From a virus, in the IMG/VR virus record IMGVR_UViG_3300025828_003176, positions 1-27,691 of that record: a stretch of DNA of 27,691 nt; one strand, 5' to 3'. The position numbers were made by a program, and so were the translations under genes. Positions 619-23,424 of this stretch are shown in pieces. Every line of letters begins with the position of its first letter. The stretch's first letter is position 1. The notes beneath the pieces are model-generated. The model worked only from the letters and a program-made list of their open reading frames with translations. It did not search any database and was not told the DNA's origin.

Positions 619-1094
619 TATCTAAGTGCCTTAAAACCAAAGGAACAACCAACACGAGGTTCTGTAAGAGATCTCACTTCATGAAGTGTGTTCGCAGGAA
701 AGTAAATCGCATCATTCTCAGTTAATTTATACTTCATTCCATCTATCTCCCATACTGTCGAACCAACACACTGTATATTCAGAATGTCCGTATCATCAGA
801 GTGTGCACCAAATCCAACACAGTCGGTATCATACGCAACAAAGAAGTGTGCATCGCATGCGAGTGAACCTGTTTCGTTAGAGAGTATCTGACAAAATCGT
901 TTTACTTCATTCGTGGTAATGTAAGCGGTCTGAGAACAATAGTATCCGTGTTCGTACAGTTTTATATTATCCACCGAGCGAGCATACTCTGCGTCTGCTT
1001 CAGCGTCTTCAAGTGTAATGTTTAAATCATAAAAGTTCGGAAGATAGATTACTTCCTCGTTGCGTATTGCATTCTGAAGTTCAAGAGAAAACAT
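618..1094 (-). CDS. Cupin/JmjC-like Fe(II) oxygenase candidate
   Basis: A 158-residue protein with the hallmarks of a small double-stranded beta-helix Fe(II) enzyme. A His-X-Asp pair (H98, D100, in GFGAHSDDTD) is followed by a strand ending in VWEI and a distal His138 in the segment DAIYFPANTLHEV, as in cupin/JmjC-type hydroxylases. The substrate cannot be read from the sequence. Its start overlaps the end of dam by 14 bases and its stop overlaps the sulfotransferase start, so the three form one operon. It is short for a JmjC enzyme, so a non-catalytic cupin or a small-molecule hydroxylase is also possible. Confidence 0.6.
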   Translation of the reverse strand: MFSLELQNAIRNEEVIYLPNFYDLNITLEDAEADAEYARSVDNIKLYEHGYYCSQTAYITTNEVKRFCQILSNETGSLACDAHFFVAYDTDCVGFGAHSDDTDILNIQCVGSTVWEIDGMKYKLTENDAIYFPANTLHEVRSLTEPRVGCSFGFKALR

Positions 1095-1944
1095 AGTTCA
1101 TCAACAGAAGTTCTTTACGATTCTTTTCATCAGCACGATAGTTCTTACCCGAGTGTAATGTATATGTGAGGTCAAAGGTGTGCTGCTCCCAGTCAGAGTA
1201 CATCTCTTTCAGTAATTTATTATTATCGTAAGAGATCATCATGGGTGCCTGACAGAAAGATACCTGTGTATGAAACTCGGTATGATCGAAGTGCTTATGC
1301 ATGTCACCATTACGACCATAGAGAAACGAGTTGCCATCCTTACCGACCTTGGCATAGGGAGGATCGAGATAGATAAATGTCCCAGGATCATCAATGAGGC
1401 AGTCACTGTAATCGTAATTCGTTATCTTCCAATCCTTTATGTGTGCACCATACTCAAGCAGTGCACGGATATTACTCTGGCTGAAGTTAGACACGGATGC
1501 CTGCTCACTGAAACCTGAGGACTCTCCGAGACCAGAGAAGGAACACTTGTTGCATACCCACCAGCGCCAACCTATCTCGAATGTATTATTCCATGGTTGA
1601 CCACAGTCTATTTTTGTCAAATAGTCCTTGCAGTCGTCAAAAAGTTTACGGTGACCCACTGCGTCATGTGCTTCACTCTTGACGCTCAGAAGGCGATTGA
1701 CGAGGTCTGAGGGACGGTCACGGAGCGTAATCCAGAAACAATACAGATTATAATACTTGTCATTGATATGAATAGGGACGTGAGGGAACTGACGTGAGAA
1801 AGCAAATGCCATAGAACCACCACCGACGAATGGTTCCACGTATTTGCCTATCATGACATTGGGCAGGAAGTTCAACAGTGTCTTGGTGGCACGTGACTTC
1901 CCGCCCATATAACGGAGAGGTGTTTTGTATTTTTTTGCTAGCAT
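1081..1944 (-). CDS. dam: DNA adenine N6-methyltransferase (D12 class)
   Basis: Transfers a methyl group from S-adenosylmethionine to adenine N6 in DNA, as T4 Dam does, and could protect phage DNA from restriction. The 287-residue protein opens with TPLRYMGGKSR (residues 8-18), has the SAM-binding motif EPFVGGGS (37-44) and the catalytic DPPY (194-197), in the order typical of the D12/alpha group. The recognition sequence (GATC in T4 Dam) cannot be inferred here. The ATG used is the only one upstream of the conserved N-terminal motif. It has no Shine-Dalgarno sequence and lies about 8 bases after a perfect -10 box, so the message may be leaderless or nearly so. Cupin-like and sulfotransferase genes follow with overlaps. 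Confidence 0.93.
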   Translation of the reverse strand: MLAKKYKTPLRYMGGKSRATKTLLNFLPNVMIGKYVEPFVGGGSMAFAFSRQFPHVPIHINDKYYNLYCFWITLRDRPSDLVNRLLSVKSEAHDAVGHRKLFDDCKDYLTKIDCGQPWNNTFEIGWRWWVCNKCSFSGLGESSGFSEQASVSNFSQSNIRALLEYGAHIKDWKITNYDYSDCLIDDPGTFIYLDPPYAKVGKDGNSFLYGRNGDMHKHFDHTEFHTQVSFCQAPMMISYDNNKLLKEMYSDWEQHTFDLTYTLHSGKNYRADEKNRKELLLMNYVFS

Positions 1945-1952
1945 AATATAAT

Positions 1953-1980
1953 ATTATACTCAGATCGGGTCAAATGTCAA
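1953..1980 (-). promoter_or_regulatory. Perfect sigma70 consensus promoter for dam operon
   Basis: On the minus strand TTGACA (1980-1975) and TATAAT (1958-1953) are separated by 16 bases, both hexamers matching the bacterial consensus exactly. The -35 box contains the TGA stop of the upstream small gene. Expected initiation near 1946 is within a few bases of the dam ATG at 1944. It is probably an early promoter read by the unmodified host polymerase. Confidence 0.85.
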
Positions 1981-5481: not shown

Positions 5482-6238
5482 TTACACTCCTTATCAGTTC
5501 TAAACCCTTGTTGTAGTTTTTATTATCTGCCTTGGCGTTCAAACTCTTCCAAGGGTTTTTCTTTGGTGGCCAACAGCAATCCGTGCATGCTGCCAGCGGA
5601 GCATCCCTCTCCACGTATGTTTTTACTTCTTCTGCGTCGTTCCACTCGCATAAATCGGACCTGTCATTCATAGCAACAACACAACGATACAGTCCTTCTT
5701 CAGTAATGGTAAGGCAGTTATCTTTTACATAACATATGTTCCAGTTTTTCTCTGGCGTTGTACCCATAACCTCAACCATCTTTGACGGTTCTTTCAGATG
5801 TAGAAAATAATCCTGATGCCAATACTCAACCGACTGTAACTTTTTATGTAACCCTGACTCGATAATATCATTTTCTATGGGCATGCCAGGATATACAGAA
5901 AACACAACACGATCAACCTTGAGTAGACTGTTTACCACCTCGTCGGTCAAGTTCAGTCCGTTGGTGATCACTGTTAACTTCTGATGCGTAGTGTGTTCAT
6001 TCCTTATATAATCTATAATCTCAGAAAATTGTTTGTGGAGAGTGGGTTCACCACCAACTATTTTTATTTCCTCAAATGTCAGGCAAAGTTTCTTGATCTT
6101 ATCGAAGATCCTATTGATCTCCCACATATCCATGTGGTGTATAGTCGCCTTACCATTCCAATCAAGAACACTACACTTTTGACAGTGCAGGTTGCAAGCA
6201 TTATTAATGTATAGATCGTAACTGCCCTGAAGTATCAA
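5474..6238 (-). CDS. Radical SAM protein
   Basis: Predicted iron-sulfur enzyme that cleaves S-adenosylmethionine to start radical chemistry. The cluster motif CxxxCxxC is C15-C19-C22 (ACNLHCQKC). A GGEP motif (IKIVGGEPTLH, SAM amino-group contact) follows at about residue 60 and a TNG strand at about 91. The C-terminus has further cysteines (CTDCCW), suggesting an auxiliary cluster as in SPASM/Twitch enzymes that modify peptides or sugars. The start is TTG, overlapping the uvsX stop as TTGA; the first in-frame ATG is after the cluster motif, so TTG is needed. The substrate is unknown. Confidence 0.85.
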   Translation of the reverse strand: MILQGSYDLYINNACNLHCQKCSVLDWNGKATIHHMDMWEINRIFDKIKKLCLTFEEIKIVGGEPTLHKQFSEIIDYIRNEHTTHQKLTVITNGLNLTDEVVNSLLKVDRVVFSVYPGMPIENDIIESGLHKKLQSVEYWHQDYFLHLKEPSKMVEVMGTTPEKNWNICYVKDNCLTITEEGLYRCVVAMNDRSDLCEWNDAEEVKTYVERDAPLAACTDCCWPPKKNPWKSLNAKADNKNYNKGLELIRSVNV

Positions 6239-7278
6239 TCTTCTAAATCCAACTCTAGTTCTTCAATCTCACCGCCAATCTGATAGGACTTCCTCACGAA
6301 CTCTTTGAAGTCAGATTCGGTAAGGATCGACTCCCAGAAAGTATCTGCTCTTGTGTCTTTCTCTCTGACCTTGTTGCCAACGAGTTGTCCAGTGCTCTTA
6401 TCAACAAGTTGATACCACCCGTTGCTAGGTTTAATGACATACCCACCAGCAAGAGCAACATCCAAAAGACCAGAGTAACGCTCAATACCACCTTCCCAAC
6501 TAACAGAGACAGGAACTTTCGACTTCTCTCTAACATAACGCGACTTCTCCACGTTGATTATGAAATCGTAACCAGTGACTTCAGTACCAGTCTTGTTCTG
6601 GCGACGACCAATGATCCACACATTATCAGCAGAGTACATAATACCTGTGCCGCCCGATACAATATCTTTGGGGAACAGACCAATCTCTTTGTATGTGTGA
6701 TTGATAGCAAGCATCGGGATATCTTTCATAGTCAGATATGGTGTAACCATACGGAACAGACCCTTCAATGCTTTCGCTCTTGACATATCTGCGACTGACT
6801 TCTCATTGATAGCATCCTCAAGTTCTTTCTTTGATGCTAGATTACCGATAGAGTCAATCACGATTACTACATCGTCGGTTGCCTCAAGTGCCTCCAACTG
6901 AGAAATCAAGTCAAACTTCAACTCCTCGACGTTAGCGATAGGAGTGTGTAATACACGATCAGTGTCGATACCGAACGTCTTGAAGTATGCTTGGGGTGAA
7001 CCAAACTCTGAATCATAGAATAACACGACTGACTCGGGTTTCGCTTTCTGATATGCTGCTGCCATCAACAAAGCGAACGAAGTCTTGAAGTGTTTACTTG
7101 GTCCAGCGAGCACAGTCAATCCAGAGGACAAACCACCATCAATGTCGCCACTCAAAGCAACGTTGACCATCGGTACACCTGTGTCAATCAATGGTCGCTC
7201 TACGAAGAACTTAGAATCAGACAGCGTTTCCGCTGCCTTAATCTTGCTGTTCTTCTTTAATTTATCCATCACGCTCAT
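6235..7278 (-). CDS. uvsX: UvsX/RecA-like recombinase
   Basis: Forms filaments on single-stranded DNA and catalyses strand exchange for recombination-dependent replication. The 347-residue protein has the T4-type Walker A GPSKHFKTS at 59-67, Walker B VVIVIDSIG at about 137-145 and a core like T4 UvsX, including INHTYKEIGLFPKDIVSGGTGIMYSADN. The acidic C-terminus (EIEELELDLED) fits the regulatory tails of this family. The ATG at 7278 is preceded by GGAG at a good distance; a longer frame to 7311 enters the upstream gene and lacks support. The start region shares a 15-base sequence with gp62. The radical SAM gene follows with a TTGA overlap. Confidence 0.95.
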   Translation of the reverse strand: MSVMDKLKKNSKIKAAETLSDSKFFVERPLIDTGVPMVNVALSGDIDGGLSSGLTVLAGPSKHFKTSFALLMAAAYQKAKPESVVLFYDSEFGSPQAYFKTFGIDTDRVLHTPIANVEELKFDLISQLEALEATDDVVIVIDSIGNLASKKELEDAINEKSVADMSRAKALKGLFRMVTPYLTMKDIPMLAINHTYKEIGLFPKDIVSGGTGIMYSADNVWIIGRRQNKTGTEVTGYDFIINVEKSRYVREKSKVPVSVSWEGGIERYSGLLDVALAGGYVIKPSNGWYQLVDKSTGQLVGNKVREKDTRADTFWESILTESDFKEFVRKSYQIGGEIEELELDLED

Positions 7279-7289
7279 AATATAATCTC
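7275..7289 (-). promoter_or_regulatory. Candidate RegA operator at uvsX start
   Basis: GAGATTATATTATGA spans the ribosome-binding site and start codon of uvsX. The identical 15 bases occur at the start of gp62 (20763-20777), and an 11-base subset at dam. T4 RegA represses early messages by binding AU-rich start regions, and a regA gene is present here, so this is a reasonable operator candidate. Binding is inferred. Confidence 0.45.
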
Positions 7290-7291
7290 CT

Positions 7292-8011
7292 TTATGGAAT
7301 CCAAATTGCATCCATGGTTATTCTATTCGTGTTCTTAAATTCTGATTTGGCAGGGAACTCATCAGTGCTTCTAAAAGGTTTGTACCCACAATCACGAAGA
7401 ATTTTTGTCGCTTTTAAATATGATTTTGGATAGATTGATCTCTCTACAATTATGACAGGGTTGAATTCTGTTACGGTTTCAAGGGCACCTTCTAGAGCAT
7501 TGGGTTCATGCCCCTCCAAGTCTAAATGTAATAGGTCTAACTCAGTCAAATTTAAATCATCAAGGCGAACTGTTTCTACATTTCCATTGCTATCCTTAAT
7601 CAGTCTAATAGACCCCCGATTGTCATTCTGGACTCTTTCCAATGAGTAATTGTCAGTTGAGGCAGTATTACTCAGTGCACGTTGATCTAAGATATATTTG
7701 TCGCCATCGCAATTTAACTGTAAACAGTCAAAGCAAGCAGGGTCTGGTTCAAAGGAGTAAACTGTGTTAAAGTATTCGCCATAAAATCTTGGGTACATAC
7801 CACAATTACCGCCAGCGGAAACAACAGTTCCAAAGTTACTGACCTTCGCCATCCAAGCAGGTGAGTGTTTACGCCAATCTTTAAGCATACCACCCCAACC
7901 ATCATAATCAACAGAAAGCCAATGAAGTCCTGCTATGCCCTCAACATCCTCACTCAGTTCTCCATTACCATCAGCGTATTTGTTAAAATTACGAAACTCT
8001 ACATGTTTCAT
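7292..8011 (-). CDS. FkbM-family methyltransferase
   Basis: SAM-dependent methyltransferase predicted to methylate a hydroxyl, often on a sugar or polyketide. In 239 residues the N-terminal third is followed by the SAM site VVSAGGNCGMYPRFY, the acidic strand FEPDPACFDCL, the family-typical DDLNLTELDLLHLDLEGHEPNALEGA, and VIIVERS. That motif II region (LDLEGHE) is characteristic of FkbM proteins. It overlaps the sugar dehydrogenase by ATGA and precedes uvsX by 13 bases. Its likely role is O-methylation of a sugar made with the upstream dehydrogenase; the pairing is inference. Confidence 0.85.
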   Translation of the reverse strand: MKHVEFRNFNKYADGNGELSEDVEGIAGLHWLSVDYDGWGGMLKDWRKHSPAWMAKVSNFGTVVSAGGNCGMYPRFYGEYFNTVYSFEPDPACFDCLQLNCDGDKYILDQRALSNTASTDNYSLERVQNDNRGSIRLIKDSNGNVETVRLDDLNLTELDLLHLDLEGHEPNALEGALETVTEFNPVIIVERSIYPKSYLKATKILRDCGYKPFRSTDEFPAKSEFKNTNRITMDAIWIP

Positions 8012-19924: not shown

Positions 19925-20332
19925 TTAGTGCTTGACCCCTATATTATATTTGGGGCAAAGTTCCCATTCACTTTTCTCTCTAAACGAAACAACTTTAATC
20001 TGGCGCAAAGGTGCTTTATCTCGCGTCATAGAATTGTCGATTATATTAACTAAACCCCAATCGCTCAAAAGAGTTGCGATTGTGTTTCTTCTGGCAATGT
20101 CAGCTTCTTCAAGAGTTGCTTTTTTGCCATCAAGTAAAAATAGTTCTTTAAAATGAACAATAAAATATCTGCCTTGCTTGTGCAAAATGTGGCAAGATTG
20201 AAACAGTTTCTTTTCTTTTCGAGAGGCAATGCCTATCCTTGTCAAGGTCTCTCGTACTTTTAGAAAATCGTCTGGTTCGTTCAGCGTGACTTCCAACATG
20301 TCCGCTGGCGTCCATGATACTACCGATTCCAT
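19925..20332 (-). CDS. regA: RegA translational repressor
   Basis: RNA-binding protein that blocks translation of early phage messages by covering their start regions. The core is very close to T4 RegA: EVTLNEPDDFLKVRETLTRIGIA, KLFQSCHILHKQGRYFIVHFKELF, EEADIARRNTIATLLSDWGL and EWELCPKYNIG all align in order, with full length. The T4 start corresponds to the internal MLEVTL (ATG at 20299); the longer start at 20332 has a GGGA ribosome site that the internal one lacks, so 135 residues are given here with the shorter 124-residue form as alternative. It follows gp62 as in T4. Confidence 0.95.
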   Translation of the reverse strand: MESVVSWTPADMLEVTLNEPDDFLKVRETLTRIGIASRKEKKLFQSCHILHKQGRYFIVHFKELFLLDGKKATLEEADIARRNTIATLLSDWGLVNIIDNSMTRDKAPLRQIKVVSFREKSEWELCPKYNIGVKH

Positions 20333-20388: not shown

Positions 20389-20395
20389 TATTTAG
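20389..20395 (-). promoter_or_regulatory. CTAAATA motif in gp62-regA gap
   Basis: CTAAATA spans the TAA stop of gp62 and starts the 59-base gap before regA, whose remainder is AT-rich with a TACAAT (no good -35 at the right distance). It could be a late-type promoter motif giving separate regA expression. The evidence is one short motif. Confidence 0.3.
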
Positions 20396-20766
20396 CGTTT
20401 CCCTCCTTTGGAGAGTTTCTTGGACAGGTTGTCGATATCTTCCTGAGTAAAGAGATCGGATACTGCCTCTGCTTTCGCAGTGCTGTACCCATATGCTTCC
20501 TTGATCACGTCAATGTTATCTATCTTCGCCTTCTTCGCCCACTTACTAAATCGCTTCCTCGCTCTGATGGCATTACGAAGGAAGTCAAACTGTAGGCGAC
20601 CATCGAGATGATGATTCCTGTTCATCTCGTTGGCAAGTAAAACGGTGTCGCGGAAGTATGAAAGACCACGGTTGACCATGAACGCTGGATACTGCTTCTC
20701 GTTCTCAGCATCAAGTATGTCTTTCTTGTTATGGTTTACACTATTCAAAACGTCAAATGGATTCAT
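20392..20766 (-). CDS. 62: Clamp-loader small subunit, T4 gp62-like
   Basis: Partners gp44 to load the sliding clamp onto primed DNA. It has 124 residues against 187 in T4; marine relatives are also short. Shared landmarks with T4 gp62 are FMVNRGLSYFRDTVLLANEMNRN (T4 [21 protein letters not shown]), LQFDFLRNAIRARKRFSKWAKK (T4 [21 protein letters not shown]) and a lysine-rich C-terminus. The start codon shares a 15-base sequence with uvsX, a candidate RegA operator, and has only a weak GAG ribosome site. The metalloprotease gene separates it from gp44 and the small ORF. Confidence 0.9.
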   Translation of the reverse strand: MNPFDVLNSVNHNKKDILDAENEKQYPAFMVNRGLSYFRDTVLLANEMNRNHHLDGRLQFDFLRNAIRARKRFSKWAKKAKIDNIDVIKEAYGYSTAKAEAVSDLFTQEDIDNLSKKLSKGGKR

Positions 20767-20777
20767 AATATAATCTC
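20763..20777 (-). promoter_or_regulatory. Candidate RegA operator at gp62 start
   Basis: GAGATTATATTATGA around the gp62 start, identical over 15 bases to the uvsX start (7275-7289). The ribosome site is weak, so a repressor covering this stretch would be effective. Assignment to RegA is inference. Confidence 0.45.
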
Positions 20778-22242
20778 AAAATAAACAAATTTGCGGATCA
20801 TCCTCTATAGTCAATCCGTCCATTTTTCTAAAATTGTTCCAAGAGAACGCAGAAGATTCTGCAATCTCATGTCCTAGTTCATTTAACTGACTCATCAACC
20901 AACGAGTTCGAAGGATAGTCTCTGCATTATTTGTAGGCGGTGGTTGATCTTCTATTGGATCCAAACAAAAACATCCACCAGTTGTTCCCAATGGTACTGA
21001 TTGCCCTTCGTATTCACCAGTACCTTCACCGAGAGTACATCTAACATTATAGTCTGAAAATCGACCCGTTGGTAAATCGGCATAAGTCATGATTGTACCA
21101 AACCCACCATAGACACCCTCGTAGTCAGGATTATCTGCTTGTGGATTATACCCTTCTATGTGGTGACCGTATGAATATTCAAAGAGACCATAACTTCCTC
21201 TAACGTCATTATATTCATGTTGAGCACCCAATAGATGTCCGACCTCATGGGCGAATGTTTCGTGTGCTCGTTCGTAATATCTCGTCGCCTCATATTCTTG
21301 GAACACTGTATTATGAAAACACTGTGTGATGCCTCTTGTTTTATCAATGCCACGAGTTGCATCAAGATTAGCAACACCACATGCGATTGGTTCCTCGGGC
21401 AGTTTTTTAAATAAGAATGCCAAGTCAGCTTCTGCTTCTCGTTGCCAATCACTAAGACCTTGAAACTCATATCGCTCATCAAAGAATGCACTATACTGAC
21501 GGTACAAATCACCCTCAGCAACATCTACCATTACAATCCCTGCTCGGCGAACAAGAGTGTATGTGCCTGATACCATATACATGTGATTTAATTCATAGAT
21601 TTGTTTATCGACAAACTCCTCTACAGTCATACCATCGCGATCTTCTTCGGTCAATGCAGTATCAACGACAAACAACATATCAATGATCGCTCTTCCAGCA
21701 TGTTCTGACCTTGGTTGGTATGGAAAACTGACTCCAGTTTTTTGTTTGATGCCATCGCAAGTCAGGTAATCATATCGAGAATCATTATTGTCAGTCGGAT
21801 CTGTAGGGCAGTCATCAGGTTTTTCCATCTGTACAAAGCATGATTGATCGAGGTGTGCAGTGCGCTCAGTATATGAACCACCTTCGCCGTCAGCATAGTC
21901 TTGAAACCTGTCCTCGCCTAATGCATGGCTGATGCTGTCTAACAGTTGTAGGAATCTATCTTCTGGTAAACTTCTACCACAGTATGATTCACCAATTGGT
22001 GTTCCTATAGGTGCAAATTGAGGAGGTTCGTAACCACAATCCTCTGAGTTTTCAGTTTCTTCTGTTGTCGAACCACCATTGCCGTCAGCAATGGTTTCGA
22101 TGAGTGTCGTGCCTTCGCACGCTGTCTCCAGAACAGTTCCTGCTGCTGGAGGTGGTGTTACCACCACTTCTTCTTGCTCTTGAGTACCACTTCCCCCACC
22201 GCATGCGGTCAACGCAAAAAATATGGGGATAAGTTTTTTCAT
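20776..22242 (-). CDS. Metzincin zinc metalloprotease lipoprotein
   Basis: Predicted exported protease anchored by a lipid. From the ATG at 22242 (TAATG overlap) it has 488 residues. A signal peptide KKLIPIFFALTAC ends in a lipobox LTAC with C14 as lipidation site, then a Gly/Glu/Pro-rich tether and a Cys-rich region. The catalytic domain holds HEVGHLLGAQH (H332, E333, H336, G339, H342), the extended HExxHxxGxxH zinc motif, and a Met-turn IMTY near 384-387, both typical of metzincins such as reprolysin-like M12 peptidases. VDMLFVVDTA-type strands precede it. A phage copy between clamp-loader genes is very unusual; the target could be a host envelope protein or a competing phage receptor. Confidence 0.88.
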   Translation of the reverse strand: MKKLIPIFFALTACGGGSGTQEQEEVVVTPPPAAGTVLETACEGTTLIETIADGNGGSTTEETENSEDCGYEPPQFAPIGTPIGESYCGRSLPEDRFLQLLDSISHALGEDRFQDYADGEGGSYTERTAHLDQSCFVQMEKPDDCPTDPTDNNDSRYDYLTCDGIKQKTGVSFPYQPRSEHAGRAIIDMLFVVDTALTEEDRDGMTVEEFVDKQIYELNHMYMVSGTYTLVRRAGIVMVDVAEGDLYRQYSAFFDERYEFQGLSDWQREAEADLAFLFKKLPEEPIACGVANLDATRGIDKTRGITQCFHNTVFQEYEATRYYERAHETFAHEVGHLLGAQHEYNDVRGSYGLFEYSYGHHIEGYNPQADNPDYEGVYGGFGTIMTYADLPTGRFSDYNVRCTLGEGTGEYEGQSVPLGTTGGCFCLDPIEDQPPPTNNAETILRTRWLMSQLNELGHEIAESSAFSWNNFRKMDGLTIEDDPQICLF

Positions 22243-22478
22243 TAGTGTACAGTATCCTCTAAGTATGGTTGTGAGAGGATCCACTGCAAGTCAGGAAGCA
22301 TGCGATATGTAAAATGCGTACCGTACATCTCTTCAACCTTCTCCAACTCTACTTGTGTAAAGTCTCTCATCAATTTATGAACAACCAAATCTTGGACTTC
22401 ATGGGCGAGAACATCAACTTTATCGCGGATCTTCTCGATGTCGCTATCAGTCCAATCTATATCAATTAAACTCGACAT
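22242..22478 (-). CDS. Small conserved hypothetical protein after gp44
   Basis: 78 residues beginning MSSLIDIDW. Mostly helical by composition, with LVVHKLMRDFTQVELEKVEEMYG and an acidic first third. It has no motif that I can name. Small ORFs between gp44 and gp62 are frequent in marine T4-like phages, and this one overlaps the gp44 end by 17 bases. Its TAA overlaps the ATG of the lipoprotein protease, coupling the two. Confidence 0.65.
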   Translation of the reverse strand: MSSLIDIDWTDSDIEKIRDKVDVLAHEVQDLVVHKLMRDFTQVELEKVEEMYGTHFTYRMLPDLQWILSQPYLEDTVH

Positions 22479-23403
22479 TTGCCATCATCTCCGTTAGACA
22501 AGCAACCATATTTAGTTCTGCGTCAGCAACAAATGCTGCCTTGTATTGATAGTCCGCAAGGATTAGAACTAACTGAGGAATGCTGTTTGGTGCGACATAC
22601 TCTGACATTGCGTCATAGATGCCACGGAAGATAGCAGCAGATTCAACATCCATGTTGTTCGCTACCCATGTTCGCATATTCTTGAAGTCTTTGTTCTTGA
22701 TATGAGAAAACAGGTCAGCGATACTTGCGCTGGTAGACTTACTCAGCACATCTAACTGAAGTTCGCCACCACGTGAGTGACGTTGAAGTTCGTTAAGCAC
22801 TCTACGCCAGTCGGGGGCGTGACGCATGATCAACTCAGCAACAAGAGTCGGGTTTGATACTGACACACCTTCATCTTCTAGGATAGTCATGGTGCGTGTC
22901 ATAAATGACTCGCACAGATTCACCATGTCTTTTTTGCTGGTGTTGAACTCAATCACACCACAACGAGAGTGTAGTGGTTCGATGATCTTGTTCTTGAAAT
23001 TACAAGTCAGGATGAATCGACAGTTAGCACTGAACTCCTCAATGAAACCACGGAGGGCAGGTTGAGTCGACTGTGCGTTCAGATAATCTGCCTCGTCAAG
23101 GATGACAACCTTGTAACCACCCTGAAGTGAGATGCTAGAAGCAAACTGTTTGATCTTGCCACGGAGAGTGTCAATGTTACCACTCTCCGATGCGTTGATC
23201 AAGATGTAGTCAAGGGAAAGTTCGTTACAGATCGCTCGGGCGACAGTGGTCTTGCCAAGACCAGCGGTGCCAGTAAACAGCATGTTGGGAACCTCACCAG
23301 TGGCGACGATCTCCTTAAACTGCTGCTTCAAGTGATCCGGCAGGATGCACTCCTCGACTGTGCGTGGTCTGTATTTTTCTACCCAAAGTGTATCAATCAT
23401 CAT
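22462..23403 (-). CDS. 44: Clamp-loader large subunit, T4 gp44-like
   Basis: AAA+ ATPase that opens and loads the sliding clamp. The 313-residue protein has Walker A TGTAGLGKT (44-52), Walker B VVILDEAD (99-106), sensor-1 LTCNFKNKI (132-140) and the arginine-finger SRC motif (146-148). Opening VEKYRPRTVEECILP matches T4 gp44 (QKYRPSTIDECILP). Two ATGs stand in tandem; the second, at 23400, is seven bases from GGAG and equally plausible. It begins an operon driven by a near-consensus promoter and continues into the small ORF, the protease and gp62. Confidence 0.95.
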   Translation of the reverse strand: MMIDTLWVEKYRPRTVEECILPDHLKQQFKEIVATGEVPNMLFTGTAGLGKTTVARAICNELSLDYILINASESGNIDTLRGKIKQFASSISLQGGYKVVILDEADYLNAQSTQPALRGFIEEFSANCRFILTCNFKNKIIEPLHSRCGVIEFNTSKKDMVNLCESFMTRTMTILEDEGVSVSNPTLVAELIMRHAPDWRRVLNELQRHSRGGELQLDVLSKSTSASIADLFSHIKNKDFKNMRTWVANNMDVESAAIFRGIYDAMSEYVAPNSIPQLVLILADYQYKAAFVADAELNMVACLTEMMANVEFN

Positions 23404-23424
23404 ATATCTCCATCATCAACATAT

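Follow-up and report, generated by a model that had tools for sequence, protein, structure and literature searches.

The window considered here, from a marine T4-like virus of bacteria, is an entire IMG/VR record, itself a fragment of 27.7 kb (27,691 nucleotides), in which an identical 15-base sequence, GAGATTATATTATGA, lies on two start codons. Exact matching confirmed the preliminary description, which had placed the sequence precisely on the starts of uvsX and gp62, and found two copies in the window, 7275-7289 (-) and 20763-20777 (-), and none further. The first copy, which includes the core word UAUAUUAUG and the SD AAGGAG, covers the start of the uvsX recombinase gene (6235..7278, -; phrog_97 E=5e-91, Pfam T4_UVSX_C). 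The motif ATG at 7278 is the best uvsX start, the alternative longer frame from 7311 being without an SD. An fkbM-type methyltransferase gene (7292..8011, -; PF05050) separates uvsX from the gene for UDP-glucose dehydrogenase. The second copy covers the start of gp62, the clamp-loader small subunit (20392..20766, -; PF16790, phrog_225), whose best start is again the motif ATG (20766). This copy runs into the gene upstream, the GA in the copy being the tail of that gene's TGA stop, and is without a strong SD. Cargo consisting of a 78-aa ORF and a reprolysin-like protease (502 aa; Pfam Reprolysin) occupies 20776..22478 (-), between gp44 and gp62. The metalloprotease gene itself (20776-22284, -) splits a gp44/gp62 block that is usually contiguous in T4-like phages.

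Related sequences are found at two other starts. The clamp-loader ATPase gene gp44 (22462..23403, -; phrog_168 E=1e-113) begins in the region GGAGATATATGATG (23398..23411, -), a degraded element that aligns with GGAGTTATATTATG of the relative G001, the second ATG of the window gene aligning with the G001 start (GGAG-ATATATG-ATG vs GGAG-TTATATT-ATG); the earlier reading of this start as a looser version of the motif is thus upheld. The 11-base ATTATATTATG, reported earlier at the dam start, was recovered as an exact match at 1942..1952 (-), at the head of a Dam-type DNA methyltransferase gene (1081..1944, -; PF02086) whose start is conserved in G001. A sigma70-like promoter, TTGACA-N16-TATAAT (1953..1980, -), also conserved in G001, precedes it, and the dam transcript is probably leaderless, since the TATAAT ends merely 8 nt before the ATG. 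No gp45 was identified within the window. RegA, the translational repressor proposed to act in trans, is encoded in the same window, as had been described, at 19925..20332 (-) (PF01818 E=3e-45; T4 RegA 1REG E=2e-41).

The coincidence of the two 15-mers was evaluated against start sites in relatives, in which the same 15-mer is present at both starts in 3 of 52,760 within-contig start pairs, which corresponds to about 0.05 such pairs in a window with 41 starts. The pair alone is modest evidence, being uncommon and not extraordinary for a pick made after the fact. As the record is only a fragment, the regulon was sought in relatives. The matches listed by an exact 15-mer scan of the collection include non-T4 phages, and therefore such a scan cannot define a regulon. 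Scanning of related phages for the motif at start codons, the check proposed in the preliminary description, was carried out with the core word as a family survey of 222 dereplicated T4-like loci (3.05 Mb; 4,439 genes clustered into families), employing a simple home-made gene caller and exact-word matching; the loci share ancestry, and the family counts are not fully independent.

The word stands out at the level of all starts. When the 56 arrangements of three A and five T before ATG were compared on the coding strand of 169 dereplicated loci, ATTATATT was the most frequent (38 occurrences against a median of 3). In a set of 3,353 dereplicated starts, TATATT ranks first among the hexamers before ATG, with 103 occurrences where a position-specific Markov model predicts 16. 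TATATTATG is present at offset 0 in 84 of 2,668 ATG starts, where 13 are expected, and its offsets are bimodal, either 0 or 11-17 nt upstream and just 5' of the SD, with almost none elsewhere within 60 nt; reversed and complementary control words gave a flat offset profile with no peak.

Enrichment is concentrated in a few families. The word is carried by 29 of 77 gp44 start sites (dinucleotide shuffles of the same leaders, mean 0.71, maximum 3), 13 of 66 start sites of the sliding-clamp gene gp45 (0.35 from dinucleotide shuffles) and 10 of 14 start sites of a CobS-like ATPase, phrog_249 (0.09 from dinucleotide shuffles), with Fisher p values across 118 families of 2e-20, 5e-6 and 4e-10, respectively. 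Among the 222 loci, a small WYL_2-domain family is further enriched and gp55 more weakly so, with no enrichment at gp62, regA, gp41 or primase and hardly any at uvsX. Some of the word-bearing genes are late or unrelated, a baseplate-like gene being one example. In two marine podovirus clades the word was found at 0 of 403 and 0 of 410 starts, and RegA is absent from their reference members, HTVC010P and P-SSP7. These comparisons identify UAUAUUAUG as a genuine start-site element of a marine T4-like phage branch. For gp44, gp45 and a CobS-like gene they strongly support the part of the earlier proposal under which replication genes share an AU-rich start word fitting a RegA operator; the part that concerned uvsX and gp62 largely failed. 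The 15-mer at these two genes is best explained as two copies of the translation-initiation-region (TIR) word UAUAUUAUG.

The history of the two copies is a local one. When conservation at uvsX and gp62 in relatives was examined, a test set beforehand, the core was present at 2 of 55 and 1 of 78 dereplicated start sites, respectively. Beyond the window, the uvsX copy of GAGATTATATTATGA is present only in the near-identical phages L083/L084, and L085, whose UvsX is 97% identical to that of the window, has a different start site without the motif. The gene fkbM is missing in L085-L088, L175 and L183, where homology restarts exactly at the uvsX ATG, again without the motif, and the context in which uvsX formerly started, GAGGATGCAGC-ATG, is found in the window ahead of fkbM. 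These alignments place the insertion of fkbM precisely at the start codon of uvsX, whose previous start context fkbM took over. The gp62 copy has been retained within a close clade (L163-L169 and L172-L174), down to about 80% protein identity, and with one change in L170/L171. The cargo stretch 20776..22478 is without similarity in L175, L176, L182 and L183, and in distant relatives devoid of the 78-aa ORF and the protease, homology restarts at the gp62 ATG and the motif is absent. Since homology restarts at the uvsX and gp62 ATGs in the cargo-free relatives, both copies lie on the inserted-DNA side of a junction. They are recent acquisitions bordering on inserted genes. The earlier notion of uvsX and gp62 as a conserved regulon was rejected, the copies being local, the L085 uvsX lacking the motif and the core being nearly absent at both genes. 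uvsX and gp62 may or may not be regulated through their copies.

It is possible, with a probability somewhat below one half, that the two 15-mers reflect chance and insertion history, the word having been recreated, or used as microhomology, during cargo insertion at the uvsX ATG and upstream of gp62. The restart of homology at both ATGs, the capture of the former uvsX context by fkbM and the expected number of identical pairs per window agree with such an origin, which does not explain why the word is enriched at gp44, gp45 and a CobS-like gene and sits less easily with the persistence of the gp62 copy at about 80% protein identity. It addresses the pair alone, and could hold together with the core word being a RegA operator.

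The placement of the word bears on its nature. Among the 21 gp44 sites that carry TATATT within -30..-10, an ATG follows in 17, even though translation of gp44 does not start there, and in 8 of these 17 the non-start AUG is separate from the SD. Retention of a non-start AUG 5' of gp44 points to recognition by a protein, and marks the word as more than an AT-rich spacer, since at this gene its position is often upstream of the SD. Together with the absence of the word from the podovirus clades, the kept AUG fits its reading by a phage RNA-binding protein. Alternatively, UAUAUUAUG could be a ribosome-side initiation word, either an unstructured AU-rich spacer or an S1 landing site, favoured for high expression with no repressor involved. 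The occurrence of the word in diverse, partly late genes, its mild elevation in a small non-T4 set (5 vs 1.3) and the presence of AGGAGATTATATT-ATG at several starts in the jumbo-phage-like contigs L329 and L357 are in line with such a role; however, the word is missing from podovirus clades of co-occurring marine hosts, is held by few families rather than by all highly expressed genes, and at gp44 is accompanied by the non-start AUG 5' of the SD, and a purely ribosomal function is regarded as unlikely. In L329 and L357, AGGAGATTATATT-ATG is reused at several small genes.

For most of the gp45 and CobS-like sites a TATAAT box is found about 30-44 nt upstream, so the word is probably part of the transcript. 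This spacing also bears on whether the word is a promoter part, either a -10-like TATATT or an initially transcribed region, and not an RNA operator. The dam site and some of the gp43 and gp44 sites do have a TATAAT 11-14 nt before the motif ATG, which would give leaderless transcripts or very short leaders; but at offset 0 a -10 element read from TATATT would place the transcription start within the gene. For most gp45 and CobS-like sites the promoter reading was rejected on account of their separate TATAAT, and overall it is considered very improbable. In many relatives (L013, L015, L021, L046 and L075), gp44 starts a few bases after the end of a terminator-like hairpin with its T run, an arrangement that suggests fusion of a terminator to the gp44 leader. 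Inside the gp45 matches of P-SSM4 and ACG-2014e (L646 and L645), one in-frame TGA each was reported.

The genes gp44 and gp45 are classical targets of RegA. The T4 protein acts on about 30 messages, in which it covers the AUG region at A+U-rich sites without structure, including gene 44 (AAAUUAUGAUU) and rIIB (AAAAUUAUGUAC), and selects the SELEX ligand AAAAUUGUUAUGUAA, while RB69 RegA protects the gene 44 and gene 45 TIRs (PMC3014915). AUUAUG is common to the word, the T4 gene 44 site and the rIIB site, and UUAUG to the word and the SELEX ligand. The RegA of the window retains the RNA-binding residues K14, T18, R21, W81 and F106, so that the same genome encodes the protein with an intact RNA-binding groove. 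No correlation was seen between the word and the RegA groove residues. RegA is therefore the best candidate, gp44 and gp45 being its classical targets, AUUAUG being present in T4 sites and the RNA-binding residues being conserved. The sites overlap the AUG or lie immediately 5' of one (offsets 0 and 11-17 nt); those of the window are A+U-rich with an AUG and show no clear secondary structure, their folding being no more structured than that of shuffles (z 0.58 to 0.67). In relatives the word occurs at gp44 and gp45 in the proportions given above, the gp44 form of the window being degraded. The 5' poly(A) tract of the T4 sites is not present, its place being taken by UAUAU.

Several observations count against RegA. 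In T4, RegA is regarded as regulating its own production, yet none of the 40 representative regA start sites bears the word. Cultured cyanomyoviruses encode RegA without the word at gp44 or gp45; the gp44 and gp45 words fail to co-occur within contigs (p=0.76); some carriers of the word are the late or unrelated genes noted above; and, among the matches listed, GAGATTATATTATGA is found at start sites of contigs without a T4-like classification. On balance, the word is somewhat more probably than otherwise a RegA-type translational operator with RegA as its reader. Under this reading, the phage's own RegA would bind UAUAUUAUG as an operator in single-stranded RNA, block 30S access and thereby shut off early replication genes.

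A wider proposal is advanced tentatively and with rather less than even confidence. In the marine T4-like branch, UAUAUUAUG may have evolved into a RegA operator defined by its sequence and gained anew at shifting TIR positions of gp44, gp45, the CobS-like gene and others, giving a predictable regulon where T4 shows no clear consensus, and inserted genes might bring their neighbours under RegA by creating the word at a junction. RegA has long been puzzling, as its T4 targets lack a clear common sequence; a conserved nine-base word at clamp and clamp-loader starts of abundant marine phages would, if true, make the RegA regulon searchable and allow a direct test of how the protein reads RNA. A literature search, with most subscription papers outside its reach, found no paper describing the word. 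The analysis also illustrates that a striking local repeat can lead to a real signal via the wrong genes.

Comparison with known systems places the word among RegA sites with features of its own. The cyanomyoviruses S-PM2, Syn9, P-SSM2, P-SSM4 and S-CAM9 share the gene block and a RegA homologue whose groove residues are the same apart from position 106, which is mostly Y, but UAUAUUAUG is missing at their gp44 and gp45 starts. Among distant T4-like phages, matches at gp44 in Klebsiella Tauntaun (TATATTATG), Serratia SP1 (GATATTATG) and Citrobacter Moon (AAATTATG) are no more than suggestive; Ackermannviridae phages and Vibrio K446 with a RegA homologue have no such match there. The T4 RegA operators are similarly A+U-rich and not clearly structured, overlap or abut the AUG, have an AUUAUG or UUAUG core and include gp44 as a main target; they differ in carrying an A tract on the 5' side and in showing no evident sequence in common, whereas the marine word has 5' UAUAU, recurs across genes and often lies 5' of the SD. 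In RB69, RegA likewise acts between the SD and the AUG at gp44 and gp45, but its sites (SELEX AAUAAUAAUAAnA) consist of UAA triplets without an AUG, while here the AUG belongs to the word. RB69 RegA shows that RegA specificity varies, which bears on the missing poly(A) tract of the marine sites.
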